Source: an uncultured Nitrospirales bacterium | GTDB taxonomy: Bacteria > Nitrospirota > Nitrospiria > Nitrospirales > UBA8639 | Assembly: GCA_958295805.1 (NCBI GenBank) | Contig: OY282373.1 | Location: 591,001-655,000 of the forward strand | DNA: 64,000 bases | Direction of reading: 5' to 3' | Shown here: one piece after another, positions 2,125-23,252 of the stretch | How positions within the stretch are numbered: the stretch's first letter is position 1 | Layout: every line of letters begins with the position of its first letter | Translations under genes and position numbers: made by a program | The notes under the pieces: generated by a model | What the model was told of the DNA's origin: nothing | Seen by the model: the letters and a program-made list of their open reading frames with translations, nothing else | The model's database searches: none

Positions 2125-2937
2125 ATGACCATGTCCCCGCTTTCTTCCAACCACTCAGACGTGAAGCACGTCTTGCCCCAACCCGTACCCGCTCCATCCT
2201 TCTGGCGCGTTCCTCCGGCGAAGATCCAGCTACCGTCGAGGCACGTCCACGTGTGGCGCGGGATTGTAGACCCGTCCCTTCCTCGCCTTCAAGTGTATCA
2301 AGAGGTCTTGAGCCCGGACGAGCAGGCACGCGCTCAACGCTTGATCCGGCCTGAACACCGACGCCGTTTTATTGCGGCACGCGGGCTCTTGCGAGACCTT
2401 CTCAGTCGCTACCTCCATGCGCGTCCCCAGGACATCCAGTTTGGATCAGGTCCCCATGGAAAACCTTTCCTTCAACACCCGACGCGTCCCTTCGTTCATT
2501 TCAACGTGGCGCACGCACGCCATCTGGCCGTGTATGCCTTTTCCCAGGATTTGGAAGTGGGTCTTGATCTCGAAGGCAACCGGGGTTCCTTAGATTACAC
2601 GAAGTTGGTCGAGCGCATGTGCAGCCCTGAAGAATTGCAGACGTTTCTCCACTTGCCGGCGGCACAACAAAAAAGTGCCTTCTTCACGTGTTGGACGCGA
2701 AAAGAGGCTGTGGTGAAAGCGCACGGCAAAGGCCTGACGTTTCCCCTAAAGCATCTGCGCGTGTCCTTCCTCCCCGGCCAATTTCCTGAAATCCTGGACG
2801 TTCAGGGACAATCCTCGGCTCTGACCCACTGGTCGCTGTTTGATCTCCCCATGGGAAGCGGGTTTTGGGGAGCCTTGGCCGTCGCGGGTCGGCCGAGTCA
2901 CGTCCACGGGTGGGAGGCCACTCTGGATGCCGGGTGA
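2125..2937 (+). CDS. 4'-phosphopantetheinyl transferase, Sfp type
   Basis: This 270-residue protein has the Sfp-type signatures in order: the RFIAARGLLRDLLSRY helix near residue 75, GPHGKPFL near 110, the substrate motif FNVAHA (FNxSHS in most relatives), the magnesium-binding VGLDLE, and CWTRKEAVVKAHGKGL near 190. It transfers the phosphopantetheine arm of coenzyme A to a serine of an acyl, peptidyl or aryl carrier protein in the cytoplasm. The Sfp size suggests a broad or secondary-metabolism role rather than AcpS, but no polyketide or peptide synthetase is in view, so the target is open. ATGs at 2125 and 2131 are both possible starts. It stands alone between a divergent transporter and a ferredoxin. 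Confidence 0.88.
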   Translation: MTMSPLSSNHSDVKHVLPQPVPAPSFWRVPPAKIQLPSRHVHVWRGIVDPSLPRLQVYQEVLSPDEQARAQRLIRPEHRRRFIAARGLLRDLLSRYLHARPQDIQFGSGPHGKPFLQHPTRPFVHFNVAHARHLAVYAFSQDLEVGLDLEGNRGSLDYTKLVERMCSPEELQTFLHLPAAQQKSAFFTCWTRKEAVVKAHGKGLTFPLKHLRVSFLPGQFPEILDVQGQSSALTHWSLFDLPMGSGFWGALAVAGRPSHVHGWEATLDAG

Positions 2938-3082
2938 ACGGGCAGTCCAAATGGCTTAGGCCATAGGCCTTCTGTCCCGTTGACTCAACATTTCACGGTG
3001 CATAGAATGAAACTTCTCTATTGATCTGGATTGCCGAAAACGTGCTTGTGATATCTCTCGCTCGTTCGATAAAGGAGGACTT

Positions 3083-3430
3083 ATGGCGTTATTGATTACT
3101 GAAGAATGTATTAATTGCGGAGCCTGTTTACCCGAATGCCCGAATGAAGCCATCTTTGAAACCCGGAGTGCCGCTGAAGAGAAAGGGTACGGCGTGGGTG
3201 AAGGACAAGGCGAAGGGGATACCGTCTACGTGATTACGTATGAACGCTGCACCGAATGCGTCGGCCACTTTGATGAACCTCAATGTGCGGCCGTCTGCCC
3301 GGTGGATGACTGTTGCATATCGGATCCCGAGGTTCCGGAAACCACGGATGTCTTGCTCGAAAAAGCCAGAACCTTGAACCCCGACAAAGAAATCGACCCC
3401 GAGAAAGTGTGGAGCGGCGTACGGAACTAG
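3083..3430 (+). CDS. YfhL-type ferredoxin with two [4Fe-4S] clusters
   Basis: This 115-residue cytoplasmic electron carrier has a first motif CINCGACLPECP at residues 9-20. Its second cluster is built from C-TEC-(8)-C-(3)-CP, with VDDCCISDPE after it. The insertion between the second and third cysteines of cluster II and the roughly 30-residue C-terminal extension are typical of the YfhL/Alvin family of low-potential ferredoxins. A strong ribosome site (AAAGGAGG) lies 6-7 bases before the ATG. It appears monocistronic, so its redox partner cannot be read from context. Confidence 0.92.
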   Translation: MALLITEECINCGACLPECPNEAIFETRSAAEEKGYGVGEGQGEGDTVYVITYERCTECVGHFDEPQCAAVCPVDDCCISDPEVPETTDVLLEKARTLNPDKEIDPEKVWSGVRN

Positions 3431-14848: not shown

Positions 14849-15060
14849 AATGCCTTCATCCCGAATTTCCGTGCCTTGAAGAGCTCAAAATCTGCACCAC
14901 CAATTTTGGACCAGCTTGTGAGTGGACACGGGCTTGACCATCCCTTATATTACGTTGTCGAGACAACGGTGGCGTCAGGATTGAACCGTATCCTGGAACG
15001 TTTGCCCCTGCATGATTGACCTGCCTCTCACCGGGTTTCCGGCACGCGGTATCCAGAACA

Positions 15061-15747
15061 GTGTCCACCTTCACCCAAGCCATTTCGTGTCACGGGATCG
15101 GGAAGTCCTACGGGCATTACCAGGTCTTCCGCCACGTCAACTTGACGATCGGTGAAGGAGAATGTTTTGTCCTCTTGGGAGCCAACGGCGCCGGAAAAAC
15201 CACGTTGTTAAAAATTCTCGCCACGCTTGAACGACCCAGTGAGGGGCACTATGAGATGCTCGGCCTGCACGGGTTGAAGGAAAAAGACGCGATTCGAGCC
15301 AACCTCACGTTGTTGGCCCACGGCACGCATTTGTACGAGGATTTGAATGCCAGAGAAAACGTCGCGTTTGCGCTGGCCCTGCGGGGGCATGCCCCGACTG
15401 ACCGCGACGTCAAGCTGACGCTCGACCGCGTCCACGTCGGTGCCTTTGCCGACGTGAAGGTTCGGCACTTTTCCGCCGGCATGAAGAAACGCTTGGCCCT
15501 GGCCAAAGCCATGTTGACGCGACCCAGAATTTTACTCTTGGACGAACCGTTTACCGCGCTCGACGCAGCCGGGACCGACCTCATGCGCGAGTACATCCGG
15601 GAACGGCTGACCGAAAAGAGCGCCGTGCTCATGTCCACCCATGATCGGCACAACGCGCGCCCCGTTGCCCATCGGACCGGCGTACTCCGGCACGGAACGT
15701 TACAGGAATGCGCCCTTGAGGACCTCTCGTCAGATGACCTCGTTTAA
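15061..15747 (+). CDS. ccmA: CcmA, ATPase of the heme-handling ABC complex
   Basis: This protein of about 228 residues has Walker A GANGAGKTT, the signature HFSAGMKKRLALAKAML, Walker B ILLLDEPF and an H-loop STHD. CcmA works at the cytoplasmic face with CcmB, CcmC and CcmD to release holo-CcmE in System I cytochrome c maturation. GTG 15061 gives MSTFTQAISCHGIGKSYG, the usual ABC start; TTG 15016 in the same frame would add 15 residues of no recognisable type. The gene overlaps ccmB by 14 bases and is the first of the ccm cluster, divergent from the C39-like gene. Confidence 0.93.
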   Translation: MSTFTQAISCHGIGKSYGHYQVFRHVNLTIGEGECFVLLGANGAGKTTLLKILATLERPSEGHYEMLGLHGLKEKDAIRANLTLLAHGTHLYEDLNARENVAFALALRGHAPTDRDVKLTLDRVHVGAFADVKVRHFSAGMKKRLALAKAMLTRPRILLLDEPFTALDAAGTDLMREYIRERLTEKSAVLMSTHDRHNARPVAHRTGVLRHGTLQECALEDLSSDDLV

Positions 15748-16411
15748 CATCATCCGCTGGATTATGTGGAAAGACGTCGTTACGGAGTGGCGAAGCCGCG
15801 AGACGATTGCCTCAATGGTGTTCTTTGCCCTCATCGTCATTCTGATTTTCAGCTTCAGCTTTTCCATGGACCAGGAAGCGGCGCGAGAGGTGATTGCGGG
15901 CATCATGTGGGTGGCGTTTTCATTTACGGGGATTATCGGGTTGGGAAAATCGTTTTCCACGGAATTGCAGAATGACTGCCTCGAAGCCCTCCACATGATC
16001 CCGGGGCCCAAGGGGGCGATCTATCTCGCAAAGGTCGCGGCGAATTTTGCCTTCATGTTCGTGGTGGAAATCCTGTTGTTTCCGATGTTTGTGATCTTCT
16101 TCAACCTTGACGTCGTTGAAGAAATTTCATTCCTTCTGGTAATATTTTTTCTGGCAACCATGGGACTTGCCGCCGTGGGGACGCTGTTTTCAGCCTTGAC
16201 CGTACAAATCCGGGCCCGTGAAGTCATGCTCCCCATTCTCCTCCTTCCCTTGGTGGTACCGGTCATGATCGCGGCGGTCGAAGCCACCAAGGCAGCCCTC
16301 AACGGAGACCCCCTGAGCCTGTACGGGCGATGGCTGGAACTCCTCGTCGTGTTCGATACGGTCTTTCTGGTGGCGTCGTATTGGATGTTTGAATTCGTCA
16401 TGGATTCCTGA
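15734..16411 (+). CDS. ccmB: CcmB, membrane subunit of the heme-handling ABC complex
   Basis: This 225-residue protein has six hydrophobic segments and the family features RWIMWKDVVTEWRSRE at the start, FSMD after the first helix, and IGLGKSFSTELQNDCLEAL in the loop that contacts CcmA. Translation at ATG 15734 overlaps the end of ccmA, typical of the tightly coupled pair. A longer frame from 15641 lies inside ccmA and is not needed. It acts in the inner membrane in heme delivery to c-type cytochromes. Confidence 0.93.
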   Translation: MTSFNIIRWIMWKDVVTEWRSRETIASMVFFALIVILIFSFSFSMDQEAAREVIAGIMWVAFSFTGIIGLGKSFSTELQNDCLEALHMIPGPKGAIYLAKVAANFAFMFVVEILLFPMFVIFFNLDVVEEISFLLVIFFLATMGLAAVGTLFSALTVQIRAREVMLPILLLPLVVPVMIAAVEATKAALNGDPLSLYGRWLELLVVFDTVFLVASYWMFEFVMDS

Positions 16412-16427: not shown

Positions 16428-17156
16428 ATGACCATTCATCGCGTGATTCGAAAAGTCCAACGGTTTCAAGGCTGGTTTGGCGGCGGAGCCGCCGTCTGCC
16501 TCATCGTCGGGCTGTACCTGGGTCTTATTGGTTCCCCGCCGGACTACTACCAGGGCGAAGTGGTGCGAATCATGTACATTCACGTCCCCCTCGCCCATAC
16601 GTCCCTCCTGGGGTATCTGGTGTTGGCCGTCGGCAGCGCGTGGTATGTATGGAAACGCGACCCGCTCGTGGACAACATGTGCCACGCCGTCGCCGCCCTC
16701 AGTGCCGTGTTCACCGCGCTGGCGCTCGCGACGGGGATGATCTGGGGCAAGCCCACGTGGAACACGTGGTGGACCTGGGACGCACGCTTGACGTCCTACA
16801 CCGTCATGCTGTTCATCCTGATCGGCTACCTCATGCTCCGCACCGTTATCGACGATCCGGAAAAAGAAGCACGGTACGCCGCGGTGCTGGCGCTCGTCGG
16901 GCTGGTGGACCTGCCGATCATTCATTTTTCCGTGGAATGGTGGCGGACCCTGCATCAACCGCAATCCATCTCTCTGCGAGGCGTGAGTATTGCCTCCGGC
17001 TTGTTGGTGCCCCTGGCGTGCATGAGCGTCGGCATGTCCTTGTTGTTTTCGTACATGCTGATGATCCGCACCCAGCAGTTGTATCTGAACCGCTTGCTTC
17101 ACGCGAAAAAAGGGCGACTCTTGAGTCAATTTCACGTGTCGAAATCCGATACATGA
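16428..17156 (+). CDS. ccmC: CcmC, heme-binding membrane protein
   Basis: This 242-residue protein has six membrane helices and the tryptophan-rich WGKPTWNTWWTWDARLT motif near residue 105 that presents heme at the periplasmic face. Conserved histidines lie on either side, in YIHVPLAHTS (about residue 50-57) and PIIHFSVEWWRTLHQP (about 165-178). CcmC loads heme onto CcmE. The gene follows ccmB after 16 bases. Its stop codon overlaps the next start as ATGA, so the next gene is translationally coupled to it. Confidence 0.95.
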   Translation: MTIHRVIRKVQRFQGWFGGGAAVCLIVGLYLGLIGSPPDYYQGEVVRIMYIHVPLAHTSLLGYLVLAVGSAWYVWKRDPLVDNMCHAVAALSAVFTALALATGMIWGKPTWNTWWTWDARLTSYTVMLFILIGYLMLRTVIDDPEKEARYAAVLALVGLVDLPIIHFSVEWWRTLHQPQSISLRGVSIASGLLVPLACMSVGMSLLFSYMLMIRTQQLYLNRLLHAKKGRLLSQFHVSKSDT

Positions 17157-17656
17157 CCAGCTTCTACGTTCGATGGAGTGGCGTACTGATTGTGGCGTTG
17201 GCGTTGAGCGTGTTCACCGGCACTCACTATCAACAAAACCTGGCAACGTGGTCTCCGTCCCAAGTCAAGGCCCAGACCCCGTTGTCGGAAATCCGCGTCC
17301 TCGGCATGGTGCAAGGCGGAACCCTGGCAGGACGGGTTGAGGCCGGAGAGGCCACCTTCGAGTTGATCGAAGGCGACGCCTCCCTGCCTGAACAGACGGG
17401 CATCCCCGTGCAGTATCACGGCCCCCCGCCGGACAATCTGCGCGAATTAAAGATGCTCATCTTGATCGGGCGGTGGAATCCTTCCGATAATATTTTCGAG
17501 GCCCGCGATATTGGATTGGTGACGAATTACGGTTTCGTCGTCGCAGCGTATCTGATCGGCCTGATACCGTTGGCCCTGTTTCTGTTTACCATGAGCCGCC
17601 GCGTCAGCTTGTTATACCAAGAAATCAAAGCATCCAAACTGTACGAGGAAGAGTAA
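17153..17656 (+). CDS. CcmE-like OB domain fused to a CcmD-like helix
   Basis: This 167-residue protein occupies the position where ccmD is expected. Residues 1-25 form a membrane anchor. Residues about 45-125 match the CcmE beta-barrel (EIRVLGMVQGGTL, FELIEGD, VQYHGPPPDNLREL, GRWNPSDNIFEARDI). The usual heme-binding His of CcmE is absent, and the chain runs straight into NYGFVVAAYLIGLIPLALFL, which resembles the single CcmD helix, followed by a basic cytoplasmic tail. CcmD helps release holo-CcmE from CcmABC, so a fused OB domain could dock or mimic CcmE. The true CcmE is encoded 1 kb downstream. The fusion reading is an inference from motif order. Confidence 0.8.
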   Translation: MTSFYVRWSGVLIVALALSVFTGTHYQQNLATWSPSQVKAQTPLSEIRVLGMVQGGTLAGRVEAGEATFELIEGDASLPEQTGIPVQYHGPPPDNLRELKMLILIGRWNPSDNIFEARDIGLVTNYGFVVAAYLIGLIPLALFLFTMSRRVSLLYQEIKASKLYEEE

Positions 17657-17689
17657 CCACGCGAGCGAAGAGAAGAATCCTGACTGAAC

Positions 17690-17822
17690 AGCATATCCTT
17701 CACTTCGTTCAGGATGACAGGGGAAAGGGCAGAATGACAGGGGAAGAACCAATTCTGAGATGACACTTCTCTGTCATTCTGAGCGAAGCGCCTGCCCTGA
17801 GCCTCGAAGGGAAGAATCTCTC
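17690..17822. repeat. left copy of the dispersed repeats flanking the GIY-YIG gene
   Basis: This block contains CTTCACTTCGTTCAGGATGAC, a GATGACAGGGG run, AATTCTGAGATGACACTT, and the long-form repeat GTCATTCTGAGCGAAGCG-CCTGCCCTGAGCCTCGAAGGG-AAGAATCT. The same elements recur on the right of the GIY-YIG gene. The rest of the spacer up to 17928 holds no gene. Confidence 0.8.
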
Positions 17823-17928
17823 CCTGACCAGCAGGATACCAGCGAAGAGTTCGGGATGATGAAGGGGTTCAACATGACCATCGCTTCACCTGAACCTGCT
17901 CTGAGCGAAACAACAGAAACCGCCCAGC

Positions 17929-18258
17929 ATGAAATCGTATTACGTGTACATCATGACCAATCTGTCAAAGACACTGTATACTGGCGTCACGAACGATCTC
18001 ATTCGTCGGGTCTTCGAACATAAGCAAGGCGTGGGGAGTCAGTTCACACGGAAATATCGTATGACGCGCCTGGTCCATTTTGAAGAGACCCAAGACGTTC
18101 AGGCCGCACTGACCCGCGAAAAACAGATCAAAGGCTGGACCCGTGCCAAGAAACTCGATCTCATTAACGCGAACAATCCTGCGTGGAAAGACTTGGCCAC
18201 GGATTGGGATGCCTCGGAACGGCAACCTTCGGCACGCACCGTTGTAGAGAAATTCTGA
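17929..18258 (+). CDS. GIY-YIG domain endonuclease-like protein
   Basis: This 109-residue protein has YYVYIMTNLSKTLYTGVTNDL with the GIY/YIG tyrosines near residues 6 and 17, an Arg-rich helix (LIRRVFEHKQG), the conserved Glu/Lys region REKQIKGWTRAKKLDLI, and NPAWKDLA near the end. Stand-alone proteins of this type (UPF0213/YhbQ relatives) are small nuclease-fold proteins of unclear role. The gene interrupts the ccm cluster between the CcmE/D fusion and ccmE, and is bracketed by copies of the dispersed repeat. This looks like a small inserted cassette. The frame is intact. Confidence 0.9.
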   Translation: MKSYYVYIMTNLSKTLYTGVTNDLIRRVFEHKQGVGSQFTRKYRMTRLVHFEETQDVQAALTREKQIKGWTRAKKLDLINANNPAWKDLATDWDASERQPSARTVVEKF

Positions 18259-18718
18259 AGTTCAGCACGATAGTATGACACGTCTCCGTCATTCTGAGCG
18301 AAGCGCCTGCCCTGAGCCTCGAAGGGAAGAATCTCTAGATAAACAGCAGTTCCTTCACTTCGTTCAGGATGACAGGAAAAGGCAGGATGACGAGGGAAAA
18401 AGGCAAGATGACGGGGAAAAAGGCAGGATGACGGGGAAAATTCAGAATGACAGGGGACAATTCGGGATGATAGGGAAAGAACTAATTCTGAGATGACACT
18501 TGTCCGTCATACTGACACGTCTCTGTCATGCTGCCACTCCTCTGTCATTCTGAGCGAAGCGAAGAATCTGACAGGGAAAAGAGCAGGAGAATGATAAGTG
18601 AAGGACTAAAAATGACGGCCCGGGGGGATTGCGGATGATTGGCGGCCCGGGGGATTGCGGATGATCCCCGCGCATCCATGTATGAGATAGCGTACAGACA
18701 GGGGTAAGACAAATTCTC
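18259..18718. repeat. right copy of the repeats and simple tandem arrays before ccmE
   Basis: No gene is seen. In order there are a long-form CATTCTGAGCGAAGCG repeat (about 18288-18334), CTTCACTTCGTTCAGGATGACAGG in part, four to six copies of a 20-22 base unit around GGCAGGATGACGGGGAAAA (about 18360-18480), AATTCTGAGATGACACTT, a short-form repeat near 18543-18570, and two near-identical 26-base units around GGCCCGGGGGATTGCGGATGA (about 18618-18665). It separates ccmE from the upstream ccm genes, so ccmE may need its own promoter or read-through. Confidence 0.75.
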
Positions 18719-19168
18719 ATGAAATCCAGAAAAGTCGGCATGATCGTCAGTATACTTGTGGTCGGCGGAGCCTTGGCCTACCTCGCACTGGGAAATTTCG
18801 GGGACAACCTGGTTTATTTTTTCACCCCGTCTGAAGTCACAGCGTTTGCCCCGGACTACTATCAGAAGAAAGTCCGCGTGGGGGGAATGGTGGTGGAGGG
18901 GACCGTGAAAGCCCACCCGGACCGACTCGGATTGACCTTTGAATTGACGGATGGGGAAGCCACGATTCCCGTCACCTTCGACGGCATCCCGCCGGACCTG
19001 TTCAAAGAAGGTCAAGGAGCCGTGGTCGAGGGCTATTGGACCGATGCCCATCAATTCAAATCCAACCTCATCATGGCCAAACATTCCGAAGACTACATGC
19101 CCATTGAACTCAAACGCGCCGGCGTCGAACTCCCCCGCAAGGACTTCATGAAATCCCTGGTGCAATAG
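18719..19168 (+). CDS. ccmE: CcmE, periplasmic heme chaperone
   Basis: This 149-residue protein has an N-terminal membrane anchor (VGMIVSILVVGGALAYLAL) and an OB-type barrel (KKVRVGGMVVEGTV, FELTDGEATIPVTFDG, PPDLFKEGQGAVVEG). It ends with the flexible heme motif AKHSEDYMP, whose His covalently binds heme in the family. It shuttles heme from CcmC to CcmF/H. ccmF starts 16 bases after its stop. The N-terminal anchor and size are normal, so this is the functional CcmE and the upstream fusion is something else. Confidence 0.95.
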   Translation: MKSRKVGMIVSILVVGGALAYLALGNFGDNLVYFFTPSEVTAFAPDYYQKKVRVGGMVVEGTVKAHPDRLGLTFELTDGEATIPVTFDGIPPDLFKEGQGAVVEGYWTDAHQFKSNLIMAKHSEDYMPIELKRAGVELPRKDFMKSLVQ

Positions 19169-19184: not shown

Positions 19185-21125
19185 ATGATTATCGAAATCG
19201 GACATTTTTCCGTTGTCACGGCGCTGGTGCTTTCGGCGTTGGGGATTGCCTCGTCCGTGCTGGCGCTCAAGACTCGTAACGTGGACTGGGTGCGAGTCGG
19301 GCGCATGGCCCTCACCTCGATTTTCATCCTCCTGTTCCTGGGCATGGCGTCTCTGGTGTATTCGTTCCTCGTTCGTGATTTTTCCGTCCACTACGTCGCG
19401 GCCACGTCGAATTCACAACTCCCGCTGTTTTACACCATCGCCGCGGTCTGGGGCGGCCATGAAGGCTCCCTCCTCTTGTGGGTCTTTATCCTCTCGGCGT
19501 TCAGTACGGTCGCGGTCTGGCTGCATTGGCGCACCCAGCCGGCCATCATGCCGTACCTCATCGGCGTGGAATGCCTGGTCATCATGGGCTTTCTCCTCCT
19601 GATTCTCTTTCTCTCAAGCCCGTTTGACCGGCTCATCCCGGCTCCGCCGGACGGCAAAGACTTGAACCCGTTGCTCCAGGACCCGGCCATGGTCATGCAC
19701 CCGCCGATGCTGTACATGGGCTACGTCGGGTTTTCGATTCCCTTTTCCTTTGCCATGGCCGCGTTGCTCTCCGGTCGTCTGGGCGAGGAATGGATCAAGG
19801 TGACCCAGCGGTGGACGGTGTTTGCCTGGTTGTGCCTGACCACGGGAATTCTATTGGGCGGCTACTGGGCCTATTATGAATTAGGATGGGGCGGCTACTG
19901 GGGCTGGGACCCGGTGGAGAACGCCTCCTTTATGCCCTGGCTGGTGGGCACGGCCTTTCTCCATTCGGTGATGGTGCAGGAAAAACGAAAAATGTTTCAG
20001 GTCTGGAATCTCTTTCTGATTATCGTGACGTTTTCGCTCTCGTTGATCGGCACCTTCCTGGTACGCAGCGGAGTCCTGACGTCGGTCCACACCTTTGCCA
20101 CGGACCCGGAACGTGGAGTGTACATTCTGCTGTTTGTGGCCACGATCATCGGCATTGCCTTCGGGTCGTTGCTGATGAGAGCCAACAAACTGAAGAGTCA
20201 GATTGAAATGGATTCCATGGTTTCGCGGGAGTCGGTGTTTCTCTTCAACAATCTGTTTTTCCTGGTTGCGGCGGCCACCGTCTTTCTGGGCACCCTCTAT
20301 CCCCTCATGATCGAGACGTGGAAAGGGGCCAAGGTGACCGTGGGACCGCCGTATTACAACGCGGTGTTCATGCCGGTGGCGTTGGGCCTCTTGTTTTTGA
20401 TGGGCGTGGGGCCCTACATCCCCTGGCGCAAAGCCTCCCCAGCCAGCTTGAAGAAACATTTTCGGGTCCCCCTCATCGTGGGACTGGCGTCAACCCTGCT
20501 GTTGTTGGCCTTCGGCGTTCATGGCGTCTTTGCACTATTCGGCGCCTTCGTCGTGGGATTTGCGGGCGCAGCCATTGTGATCGACTTCGGAAAGATTTCC
20601 CGGCTGTATGCGCGCAGAGAGTCCGTCAATCCGCTGAAGGGATTTCTGTCGGCCTTTCGCTCCAATCAACGGCGCTACGCCGGACTCGTGACGCACGTGG
20701 GCGTCCTGGTTCTGGTGGTCGGCATTATCGCATCGACCGTGTATCAAACGGAAAAAGTGGTCTCGCTACGGGTCGGGGATGAATTCATCCTTGATGAGTA
20801 TCGGGTCAAACTCGAACGAATTCATGAAGTCAGGGGGAAAAACTGGAACGCCCAGGAAGGCGTCTTTGAAGTCTACGAAGGGGACGCGCTGCTCACCAGA
20901 TTGCGCCCCCAGAAGCGCGTGTATGACGCCTCCCAAACTCCAACCACCGAATCCGCGATTTACGCAAAAAACATGGGACATATTTTTCTCACCATGCCGG
21001 ACGTGTCGCCTGAGGGAGTGGCCGTAGCCCGAGGCGTCATTAACCCGCTGATTCTGTGGGTGTGGGGCGGCGGCGGCATCATGGGACTCGGCGTGTTGCT
21101 GAATATATTCCGACCACGAAAATGA
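19185..21125 (+). CDS. ccmF: CcmF, heme lyase membrane subunit
   Basis: This 646-residue protein has about 14-15 membrane segments. The periplasmic tryptophan-rich motif WGGYWGWDPVENASFMPW lies near residue 240. Other conserved pieces are AAVWGGHEGSLLLWVF near 85, MHPPMLYMGYVGF near 165 and RSGVLTSVHTFATDPERG near 290, all with the histidines that ligand heme. It joins heme to apocytochrome c with CcmH. The last 100 residues hold the usual periplasmic loop and final helix. Start ATG 19185 is 16 bases after ccmE. Confidence 0.95.
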   Translation: MIIEIGHFSVVTALVLSALGIASSVLALKTRNVDWVRVGRMALTSIFILLFLGMASLVYSFLVRDFSVHYVAATSNSQLPLFYTIAAVWGGHEGSLLLWVFILSAFSTVAVWLHWRTQPAIMPYLIGVECLVIMGFLLLILFLSSPFDRLIPAPPDGKDLNPLLQDPAMVMHPPMLYMGYVGFSIPFSFAMAALLSGRLGEEWIKVTQRWTVFAWLCLTTGILLGGYWAYYELGWGGYWGWDPVENASFMPWLVGTAFLHSVMVQEKRKMFQVWNLFLIIVTFSLSLIGTFLVRSGVLTSVHTFATDPERGVYILLFVATIIGIAFGSLLMRANKLKSQIEMDSMVSRESVFLFNNLFFLVAAATVFLGTLYPLMIETWKGAKVTVGPPYYNAVFMPVALGLLFLMGVGPYIPWRKASPASLKKHFRVPLIVGLASTLLLLAFGVHGVFALFGAFVVGFAGAAIVIDFGKISRLYARRESVNPLKGFLSAFRSNQRRYAGLVTHVGVLVLVVGIIASTVYQTEKVVSLRVGDEFILDEYRVKLERIHEVRGKNWNAQEGVFEVYEGDALLTRLRPQKRVYDASQTPTTESAIYAKNMGHIFLTMPDVSPEGVAVARGVINPLILWVWGGGGIMGLGVLLNIFRPRK

Positions 21126-21201
21126 AAGGAACATTGTCGATTGCTGATTGCTTCAATCCAAAATCCTCAATCAAAAATCTACAATCAGCAATCTCTATCA
21201 G

Positions 21202-21741
21202 ATGACGCGCACCACGCAACTGATGATTCTCGTCGTGCTCTTCGCCTTATTCTCCTTGTTGTACCAAGGACTCTGGGGAGATCCGCGACACATCCCGACG
21301 GTCCTGGTGGGCACCCGGGCGCCCGTGTTTGAAGGGCCGGACGTGGAAACGGGAGAACCGCTCTCCTCCGAACGGTTCAAAGGCAAGGTGATCCTGGTGA
21401 ACTTCTGGGCCTCGTGGTGTCAGGAGTGCAAAATCGAGCATGACAACCTGCTGAGACTGCACGATGAATACAAGGATCATCCCGAATTCGTGATGCTGGG
21501 GATCAACTACCAGGATGAGCCGCCGAAGGCGCGCGCCTATTTGCAACGCCATGGGTCGAGCTTTTCGCACGTCCGCGACGTCAACGGCACGCTGGCCATT
21601 GATTTCGGCGTATACGGCGTACCGGAAACGTTCGTCATCGACAAAAATGGCGTCATTCGGCACAAATGGATCGGCCCGATCGTGGACGACGTCTACGCCA
21701 ATCTCACGCAGAACGTCCTGACCCCCTTACTGGAAGGTTGA
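21202..21741 (+). CDS. ccmG: CcmG/DsbE-like thioredoxin
   Basis: This protein of about 179 residues has an N-terminal anchor (QLMILVVLFALFSLLYQGLW) and a thioredoxin fold with NFWASWCQECKIEHDNLLRL (active-site CQEC near residue 75) and YGVPETFVIDKNGVIRHKWIG near 140, the GVPE and acidic loop typical of CcmG. It reduces the cysteines of the apocytochrome CxxCH site. CQEC is an unusual dipeptide between the cysteines, where the family usually has CPxC or CxPC. ATG 21202 is preferred; 21148 in the same frame would start inside a short AT-rich repeat between ccmF and this gene. Confidence 0.92.
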   Translation: MTRTTQLMILVVLFALFSLLYQGLWGDPRHIPTVLVGTRAPVFEGPDVETGEPLSSERFKGKVILVNFWASWCQECKIEHDNLLRLHDEYKDHPEFVMLGINYQDEPPKARAYLQRHGSSFSHVRDVNGTLAIDFGVYGVPETFVIDKNGVIRHKWIGPIVDDVYANLTQNVLTPLLEG

Positions 21742-21750
21742 TGTCGGATT

Positions 21751-22230
21751 GTGGATTTTCGATTGAAAAAATCAGCAATTCTTTTCTTGCTTCTCTGTTG
21801 CGTCGCCGTTCCTCACGAGGGGTCGGCAAAAGTCGTGGATGAAACGGAAATAGATCAACGGGTGCGCGAGATCGCCAAAACGCTTCGCTGCACCGTCTGC
21901 CAGACCGAAACGCTGTGGGAGTCCGGCGCGCCCTTGGCCCAGCAAATGCGGGAAGCCATTCGAACCCGCGTCAGTCAAGGCCAGACAGCGGAAGAAATCC
22001 GGGCCTACTTCCACGGCCGGTACGGCGATTACATCATGATGGCGCCCCCGAAAGAAGGGAGTAATTGGTTGATCTGGGTGGCGCCCTTTCTCTTGCTCGC
22101 GGTCGGCGGCGCATTATTATGGAGAGAAGTGAAACGTTGGGTGACCCGAACACCGGCGCTTCAGGTTGAATCGCCTCCTCCGCTGGATGAAGAGTCCCGA
22201 CGCCGCATTGAACGCGAATTGCAGCCGTAA
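21751..22230 (+). CDS. ccmH: CcmH (CcmL-type) apocytochrome thiol protein
   Basis: This 159-residue protein has a signal or anchor helix (SAILFLLLCCVAVPHEGSA), the redox motif TLRCTVCQTETL near residue 45, where LRCxxCQ is the family hallmark, and a helical bundle ending GRYGDYIMMAPPKEG. A C-terminal membrane helix (LIWVAPFLLLAVGGALLW) follows. It holds apocytochrome c through a mixed disulfide and presents it to CcmF. Translation starts at GTG 21751, nine bases after ccmG. The frame is normal in length. Confidence 0.94.
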   Translation: MDFRLKKSAILFLLLCCVAVPHEGSAKVVDETEIDQRVREIAKTLRCTVCQTETLWESGAPLAQQMREAIRTRVSQGQTAEEIRAYFHGRYGDYIMMAPPKEGSNWLIWVAPFLLLAVGGALLWREVKRWVTRTPALQVESPPPLDEESRRRIERELQP

Positions 22231-22334: not shown

Positions 22335-23252
22335 ATGTCGATCATCTTTCTCATCGCGTGTGCCGTGATCCTGCTCGGCGTGACGGCCGCGGTGTCCTCT
22401 CCATTGTGGCGTCACGACCCCACGACGCCAGAGTTGATTAGTCGGGAAGCCGCGGAAGATCAAGAACGAGCCGATCTTTCCGTGGAGCGGGAAGGACTGC
22501 GCCAGTCACTCCACGAACTTGACGTCGAACTTGCCCAGGGTCGGTTGGAACCGGCGGATTATGAACGATTGAAAGCCACGGACGAACGGCGCCTGCTGGG
22601 AGTCCTGGATCGACTCGCAGCCCTGACCGTCCCAAACTCCCCGTCGTCCGTCCCAGACCACGTGGAAAAACCCCGCGCCTGGGGATCGGCCACGGCGGCG
22701 AGCCTGATCGTGTTGACGTCGGCAATCGCGATCTACGGCTTTCTGCAATGGCAAACCATGAACCGGCTCGTGAACGCCCAAGCCGAAATGGCCGCACAAA
22801 TGCCGGACCCGCGGGACATGGTCGCCCGATTGGAAACCAGACTCAAAGAAAACCCCGACGACGTGCAAGGCCAGATGATGGCCGGTCGCTCCTACATGGC
22901 CCTGAACCGCGTGGAGGAGGCAAAGGCCGCGTATGAAACGGTGCTGAAACTTGACCCTCGGAACCATGAAGCCCATTACAACTTGGGCGTCATCATGATT
23001 GACGAACGCAAATTCGACGATCCAAAAATTTTCCAAATGGCCTTGAAACATTTCGACACGGTGTTGGTTGACCTGCCGAATCAACCCGGGGTCAACTGGT
23101 ATAAAGGCTTGGCCTTGTGGTATCTGAAACGGTATCGGGAAACCGAAGAATTCTGGGCCACCGCCCACAAAAATCTTCAACCCGGAAGCCAGGACGCCGA
23201 ATTCGTCAAACAGGCGCTCGCCAAACTACGAAAAGGCGAGACCCCATTTTAA
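22335..23252 (+). CDS. ccmI: CcmI-like TPR protein of cytochrome c maturation
   Basis: This 305-residue protein begins with a membrane helix (IIFLIACAVILLGVTAAV), then a coiled-coil or acidic stretch with the CcmI pattern (LRQSLHELDVELAQGRLEPADYERL split by a few residues). A second membrane helix follows near residue 120 (AASLIVLTSAIAIYGFLQW). A periplasmic TPR domain starts near residue 165 (VQGQMMAGRSYMALNRVEEAK, YNLGVIMID, WYKGLALWYLKRY). CcmI recruits apocytochrome to CcmFH. It is the last ccm gene and follows ccmH after a 104-base spacer with one dispersed repeat. Confidence 0.88.
   Translation: MSIIFLIACAVILLGVTAAVSSPLWRHDPTTPELISREAAEDQERADLSVEREGLRQSLHELDVELAQGRLEPADYERLKATDERRLLGVLDRLAALTVPNSPSSVPDHVEKPRAWGSATAASLIVLTSAIAIYGFLQWQTMNRLVNAQAEMAAQMPDPRDMVARLETRLKENPDDVQGQMMAGRSYMALNRVEEAKAAYETVLKLDPRNHEAHYNLGVIMIDERKFDDPKIFQMALKHFDTVLVDLPNQPGVNWYKGLALWYLKRYRETEEFWATAHKNLQPGSQDAEFVKQALAKLRKGETPF

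Follow-up and report, generated by a model that had tools for sequence, protein, structure and literature searches.

The window, a stretch of 64,000 nucleotides from an uncultured Nitrospirales bacterium, contains a System I cluster made up of ccmA, ccmB, ccmC, a fusion gene, ccmE and ccmF, followed by ccmG-, ccmH- and ccmI-like genes (Table 1). The fusion gene encodes a CcmE-like domain joined to a CcmD-like helix, and in our reading of the open reading frames its start overlaps the stop of ccmC. A sequence-only reading of this DNA had placed the fusion in the ccmD position and had pointed to a real ccmE downstream. Both statements hold, as the gene lies between ccmC and ccmE in the window and in 46/46 relatives, and the downstream ccmE encodes the heme-binding His.

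The spacer between the fusion gene and ccmE is 1062 bp long and includes dispersed repeats and a GIY-YIG open reading frame at 17929-18258. Long spacers at this place were also observed in two relatives, L031 (~0.6 kb) and L032 (~1.8 kb), and the remaining 44 fetched loci have fewer than 300 bases here. The repeat TCATTCTGAGCGAAGCGAAGAATCT and its near copies occur at six sites in the window (18545, 22254, 23329, 23363, 44409 and 47424), with none expected, and the sites within the ccm region are intergenic.

Table 1. Genes of the System I cluster and features of the fusion protein, in window coordinates.
Feature	Coordinates	Strand	Basis
ccmA	15016..15747	+	TIGR01189 138.9 bits, cut-off 131.6 exceeded
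ccmB	15734..16411	+	PF03379 E 2.4e-37
ccmC	16428..17156	+	TIGR01191 197.3 bits, cut-off 186 exceeded
Fusion gene (CcmE-like domain and CcmD-like helix)	17153..17656	+	ATG start, 167 aa
N-terminal membrane anchor helix, residues 1-30	17153..17242	+	model helix 2-30, hydropathy; R7 and W8 invariant in 47/47
CcmE-type OB barrel without heme ligand, residues 35-121	17255..17515	+	PF03100, Foldseek 8ce8_E, VIA model
D94-N-L-R97-E98, equivalents of E. coli CcmE D101/R104/E105	17432..17446	+	alignment
Junction motif NYGF, residues N125-F128	17525..17536	+	Y126 aligns with CcmD Tyr17
CcmD-like transmembrane helix and conserved basic cytoplasmic tail, residues 126-163	17528..17641	+	model helix, hhalign
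Spacer, fusion gene to ccmE	17657..18718		GIY-YIG ORF and dispersed repeats
True ccmE, heme-binding His in AKHSEDY	18719..19168	+	PF03100 E 6.9e-32
ccmF-type heme lyase	19185..21125	+	PF16327 and PF01578; TIGR00353 565.9 bits, slightly below cut-off 569.05
ccmG/dsbE-type thioredoxin	21148..21741	+	TIGR00385 116.2 bits, slightly below cut-off 123.15
ccmH	21751..22230	+	PF03918 E 1.4e-36
ccmI-like TPR protein	22335..23252	+	TIGR03142 29.0 bits, cut-off 29.3; TPR models

A CcmE-type barrel and a CcmD-like helix in one chain

The architecture of the fusion protein is well supported. Its barrel matches the CcmE family PF03100 with 38.4 bits (cut-off 24.6, E 1.6e-9), over residues 35-120 of the protein and positions 7-88 of the 99-position profile, and the alignment stops short of the profile end that carries the heme ligand. 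The same family was matched by 28/28 rows of our family alignment A2, which holds the window protein and the proteins from 27 of the 46 loci. Using A2 as input, AlphaFold2 predicted a helix at residues 2-30, an OB barrel and a second helix at residues 126-163, with a pLDDT of 83.4. The best PDB structure match of this model in Foldseek was 8ce8 chain E, the CcmE of the CcmABCDE complex (E 5.6e-5), and together these results predict a membrane-anchored, periplasmic OB barrel. A search of the PDB by sequence returned no relatives of the fusion. VIA-align superposed residues 1-121 of the model on residues 8-127 of 8ce8 chain E with a Z of 9.3, a value that many unrelated OB folds tie, so VIA-align does not single out CcmE and our assignment of the fold leans on the Foldseek rank and the sequence. 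The extent of the superposition indicates that the fusion chain departs from the CcmE pattern right before the His130 loop.

The covalent heme ligand of CcmE is a His in HxxxY or a Cys in CxxxY within the C-terminal tail, and no such ligand is conserved in the fusion across 47 aligned rows. Because columns 126-135 of a joint CcmE/fusion alignment were misaligned for the fusions, with their tail drawn onto AKHDENY, these columns were discarded and the junction was read on an alignment of fusions only. Residues 118-128 in this alignment contain no conserved His or Cys; His reaches a maximum of 8/47 in one column (118) and is found in 1/47 at 121, 124 or 125. The flexible soluble tail of CcmE is missing as well, and in the model the second helix, with hydropathy up to 2.45, directly follows the barrel. 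The earlier description of a CcmE-type barrel that lacks the heme-binding His is borne out by these results. In the whole genome, a single contig of 2.9 Mb, PF03100 matched at the fusion and at the true ccmE and at no other place.

The junction and the helix after it resemble CcmD. In the fusion-only alignment N125 and G127 are each present in 46/47 rows, and residue 126 is Tyr in 32 and Phe in 15, which means that the CcmD-type periplasmic aromatic ahead of the helix, the equivalent of Tyr17, is present in 47/47 fusions. AY133, F145 and M147 are invariant in the helix, and the tail is conserved. The curated CcmD models nevertheless miss this segment. TIGR03141 gave 9.8 bits with the whole protein and 14.5 bits with residues 118-167 alone (cut-off 25.95), and at E ≤ 1 PF04995 matched 4/28 rows of A2 (best E 0.0051) and TIGR03141 6/28 (best E 0.035), all below the curated cut-offs. 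Unrelated families matched A2 at similar or better E-values, with TIGR04554 reaching E 4e-4 in 3/28 rows. We therefore call the helix CcmD-like and do not file the fusion as a member of these models.

Comparison of profiles with profiles was decisive here. With hhalign, the C-terminal alignment of 47 fusions matched the f11 CcmDs, a profile of three short standalone proteins encoded between ccmC and ccmE, at 95.2% (score 39.4), and a classical set of 20 Nitrospirota CcmDs plus E. coli CcmD at 23.3% (score 21.0). The best of 75 control windows, taken from transmembrane stretches of CcmB, CcmC and CcmF at the same loci, reached 9.4% (score 17.6). Since the f11 CcmDs gave 22.4% (score 20.5) against the classical set, the fusion helix stands no farther from classical CcmD than they do. 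We also searched 3883 six-frame segments, taken from loci that lack the fusion, with an HMM built on the helix; the f11 CcmDs came out on top (E 1.8e-4 to 1.3e-3), and the insignificant matches that came next included classical CcmDs. Two of the three f11 proteins were scanned with TIGR04391 and scored 24.2 and 23.2 bits (cut-off 24). In the genome of the window, TIGR03141 at E ≤ 10 matched only at the fusion, and profile searches with TIGR04391 and PF20077 gave no match. The sequence-only reading had called the C-terminal helix CcmD-like, and this stands: the profile-profile comparison relates the helix to CcmD above 75/75 controls, though the curated cut-offs are missed, and the three models found no separate ccmD elsewhere in the genome. 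From this similarity we consider it very probable that the helix is derived from CcmD.

Another account would make the helix a mere second anchor of a CcmE paralogue, not CcmD, in bacteria that do without CcmD as archaea do. The curated models that miss the helix fit this account, as does the report that archaea produce and release holo-CcmE without CcmD (PMC9084895). However, the profile-profile score is greater than that of all 75 controls, with an f11 CcmD as the nearest relative, and the invariant AY133, F145 and M147 and the conserved tail would be superfluous for a simple anchor. With the distribution described below, which also speaks against it, we regard this account as very unlikely.

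The position of the junction can be compared with what is reported for CcmD. CcmD Tyr17 coevolved with, and adjoins, Met118 of the CcmC WWD domain, and CcmD was suggested to reset WWD (PMC9616876). A modelled complex has the His130/Tyr134 loop of CcmE in contact with CcmD Tyr17 at the CcmC heme site (PMC8975832), and heme was cross-linked to E. coli CcmD Y17C (PMC12077264). As Y126 occupies the Tyr17 position, the fusion joins barrel and helix at the presumed meeting point of CcmE and CcmD in E. coli. This location could also suit a second, non-covalent heme carrier, in which the barrel would relay heme from CcmC to CcmE through Tyr/Phe126, Asn125 or membrane-facing aromatics. Such a carrier would be in line with the heme cross-link to a Cys at the Tyr17 position in E. 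coli, next to which the junction lies, and with the Tyr or Phe found at residue 126 in every fusion. The junction has no conserved His or Cys nearby, however, and the Phe in 15/47 indicates that the site can do without a Tyr ligand. An NMR study of E. coli CcmE found its core to have no heme site (PMC6204919), and we consider a heme-carrying barrel unlikely.

Distribution and origin of the fusion gene

Full-length relatives of the fusion were found in 11/148 genomes of a first phylum sample. In a larger Nitrospirota sample the fusion was present, at E ≤ 1e-15, in 48/395 genomes and 25/169 genera, and is thus not a one-off. Across these 395 genomes the fusion occurs in families f1, f3, f4, f5, f13 and f29-f34. 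A standalone CcmD over the PF04995 cut-off occurs in 66/395, in families f2 and f6 only, and none of the 395 genomes has both. We had also tried PF04995 at E ≤ 1 as a count of CcmD; this was rejected as unspecific, with matches in 117/148 genomes and 13/14 controls, and only over-cut-off matches were counted. A true CcmE is present in 48/48 fusion genomes. PF03100 at E ≤ 1e-15 was found in 135/395 genomes, the 48 fusion genomes included. Besides the genomes with the fusion or an over-cut-off CcmD, 21 of these 135 remain, three of the f11 type and 18 (one with a partial CcmE) without fusion, over-cut-off CcmD or f11 type. In its genomes, the fusion replaces standalone CcmD. The ccmD gene slot, and the fact that fusion and over-cut-off CcmD never occur together in the sample, also count against the helix being a simple second anchor.

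Two observations concern genomes without the fusion. Of the 18 just mentioned, we looked at G122 and G140, in which CcmE is of the Cys type (VKCPSKY). Their ccmE genes (L134 of G140, 2928-3404; L135 of G122, 1765-2193) lie beside ccmF, a thioredoxin gene and a CcmH-like gene, and nothing in the fetched stretch matched ccmABC. This is a second form of System I, carried by other Nitrospirota. Separately, f2 genomes (G070, G145 and others) contain open frames of ~144-168 aa that PF03100 matches weakly (E 1e-4 to 1e-3), over the barrel and not the heme ligand; these may be a further family of CcmE-like OB proteins without the His.

Scanning named species genomes by pattern yielded 46 loci, all full length. 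The titles of 45 are of the Nitrospirota type and one is Nitrospinota (L028, 70% identical). This pattern-based scan, the one test of spread outside Nitrospirota, is able to miss divergent cases. Candidatus Manganitrophus is among the matches, as are many Nitrospirales MAGs. The order ccmC-fusion-ccmE holds throughout the fetched loci (46/46), and the ccmC stop overlaps the fusion start in 35/46, with the two genes at most 30 bases apart in 43/46. Some loci, such as L063 and L071, are without ccmA or ccmB in the fetched flank, and there the fusion still adjoins ccmC. Neither the viral contigs searched nor the plasmids searched by tblastn contained relatives of the fusion.

To place the barrel among CcmEs, we used a tree of 58 barrels, made by a quick method from 22/47 fusions, 22/47 CcmEs of fusion genomes, 13/23 other CcmEs and E. 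coli CcmE. One group (support 100) unites the fusions, and a second (support 99) contains the CcmEs from fusion genomes. By this tree, which leaves the fusion group unrooted and has long branches as a caution, the fusion arose once. The terminal branches of the fusion barrels are longer than those of their partner CcmEs. These branch lengths and the lost His would also fit a decaying ccmE duplicate, fused by accident and without a job beyond carrying the CcmD helix. However, the gene is open and full length in 47/47 rows and in 25 genera, with many invariant residues in both halves, making decay highly improbable.

Docking residues and a possible exchange at CcmC

In E. coli, docking is ascribed to CcmE residues R73, D101 and E105 with CcmC residues D47, Q50 and R55 (PMC6204919). 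The same study implicates the pair CcmC Q49 and CcmE R104 in the release of holo-CcmE, a step for which CcmD is required; it describes a Q49/R104 double alanine variant in which holo-CcmE accumulates and no cytochrome is made, and reports no effect for R104A alone (PMC6204919). In a cryo-EM complex CcmE contacts CcmB only (PMC10457321), which makes the dock on CcmC uncertain.

The barrel of the fusion retains most of the docking equivalents, with D/E101, R104 and E/D105 each present in 47/47 fusions; the fourth docking residue, R73, is R or K in just 9/47. Within the loop at 100-108, eight positions are at least 95% conserved in 71 CcmEs. Positions 101, 104 and 105 are kept in at least 90% of the fusions, and the other five (P100, L102, F103, G106 and G108) are below 90%. 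The chance of retaining precisely these three among the eight is 1 in 56, if any three are equally likely. An alternative is that the three residues could be kept for folding.

The partner proteins were compared at the same positions. CcmC D47, Q50 and R55 are intact in 45/45 fusion genomes with letters there. CcmC Q49 is changed to Y in 45/45 fusion genomes compared with 0/23 non-fusion genomes, f11 included. Position 120 of the CcmC WWD loop (E. coli numbering) is Gly in 23/23 non-fusion genomes, and the change from G120 to N or D is seen in 43/46 fusion genomes compared with 0/23; the window reads PTWNTWW. In the true CcmE of fusion genomes R73 is lost in 47/47, compared with 0/23 in non-fusion genomes. 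As all of these changes in the two partner proteins stem from a single clade, they represent one event and not independent support, and they could be unrelated to the fusion.

With the docking residues D/E101, R104 and E/D105 kept and the His/Cys tail gone, the barrel could sit in the dock without taking heme. The sequence-only reading had suggested that a built-in CcmE mimic could change heme handover. This is still an inference, made specific by the retained docking residues: the barrel may dock on CcmC, compete with CcmE and affect release. That it docks on CcmC with its CcmE face seems reasonably probable, and, were docking granted, a role in exchange or release would be rather likely.

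We tentatively hypothesize, at somewhat less than even confidence, that the fusion is a CcmD-type subunit with a tethered, heme-incompetent CcmE mimic that exchanges with CcmE at CcmC and aids release. The protein would be a CcmD whose periplasmic N-terminus has been extended by a paralogous CcmE domain, unable to take heme, with an anchor of its own. The C-terminal helix would bind CcmC in the manner of CcmD and put the aromatic of NYGF, the counterpart of E. coli CcmD Tyr17, next to the WWD heme site, thereby keeping the barrel above the place where CcmE is loaded with heme. There the barrel would be able to occupy the dock and unable to accept heme. Apo-CcmE would displace the tethered barrel to receive heme, and return of the barrel to the dock would eject holo-CcmE and reset the site. 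We further speculate, with still more reserve, that across this whole bacterial lineage the tethered CcmE copy may act as a decoy chaperone, competing for the CcmC dock and so setting when heme is loaded and released. The WWD loop (G120 to N/D) and the face of CcmE (R73 lost) would then have been retuned to suit it.

The main rival is a passive clamp, in which the CcmD helix carries a barrel permanently docked on CcmC, CcmB or CcmE. Such a barrel would steady CcmCD or bring CcmE in, and would play no part in exchange or release. OB barrels frequently mediate protein contacts. The same architecture evidence (PF03100 in A2, the model and synteny) is compatible with a clamp, and the few conserved surface positions of the barrel, along with terminal branches longer than those of partner CcmEs, are as would be expected of a loose duty. 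The residues kept are precisely the loading and release residues of the CcmC-docking loop, however, suggesting more than a generic scaffold, although a clamp seated on CcmC would likewise preserve them. We consider a purely passive role somewhat less likely and continue to prefer, tentatively, the exchanging CcmE mimic.

The fusion among known System I proteins

Like CcmE (PF03100; E. coli 1SR3, 8CE8 chain E), the fusion has an N-terminal anchor, an OB barrel, a PF03100 match over cut-off and the docking residues D/E101, R104 and E/D105. Unlike CcmE, it has neither the His/Cys ligand nor the soluble C-terminal tail, R73 is mostly lost, and the chain runs straight into a second membrane helix. 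With CcmD (PF04995/TIGR03141; CcmD_alt TIGR04391) it shares the slot between ccmC and ccmE, a single hydrophobic helix, which starts at a periplasmic Y/F motif and leads into a basic tail in the cytoplasm, as well as profile-profile similarity above controls, and the two were never found in one sampled genome. The fusion is 167 aa long, compared with 37-100 aa given for CcmD (PMC12077264), and its anchor and barrel take the place of the short N-terminal periplasmic segment of CcmD. The f11 standalone CcmD of other Nitrospirota (VKSNYEFIAAAY...) shares with the fusion both the gene slot and the start NYxF(I/V)xAAY; it differs in its length of 53 aa and in having no CcmE domain, and f11 genomes, unlike fusion genomes, keep CcmE R73 and CcmC G120. 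E. coli CcmH, a CcmH-CcmI fusion, likewise joins two neighbouring Ccm proteins. Both parts of E. coli CcmH work, whereas the CcmE part of the present fusion is a copy unable to take heme, and a working CcmE is retained besides.

Our searches of open-licence papers, a set outside which most subscription papers lie, turned up none about a CcmE-CcmD fusion. A fusion of archaeal ccmD to ccmA, ccmB or ccmC has been considered and was judged unlikely (PMC9084895). Given its PF03100 match, we expect that the protein would be annotated simply as "CcmE".

The fusion bears on the part that CcmD plays in holo-CcmE release in System I, and on the loading dock of CcmE, which mutagenesis and modelling place on CcmC and cryo-EM on CcmB. 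Evolution attached a CcmE barrel to CcmD at the Tyr17 position; the heme ligand was lost, and the residues for docking on CcmC were preserved. Provided that the barrel docks on CcmC, the fusion would be a natural locked loading complex, open to purification and structure determination, and the barrel would be a ready competitor for probing the release step. System I complexes of Nitrospirota differ from the E. coli complex, and in many Nitrospirota the loading site may possess a built-in stand-in for the heme carrier CcmE.
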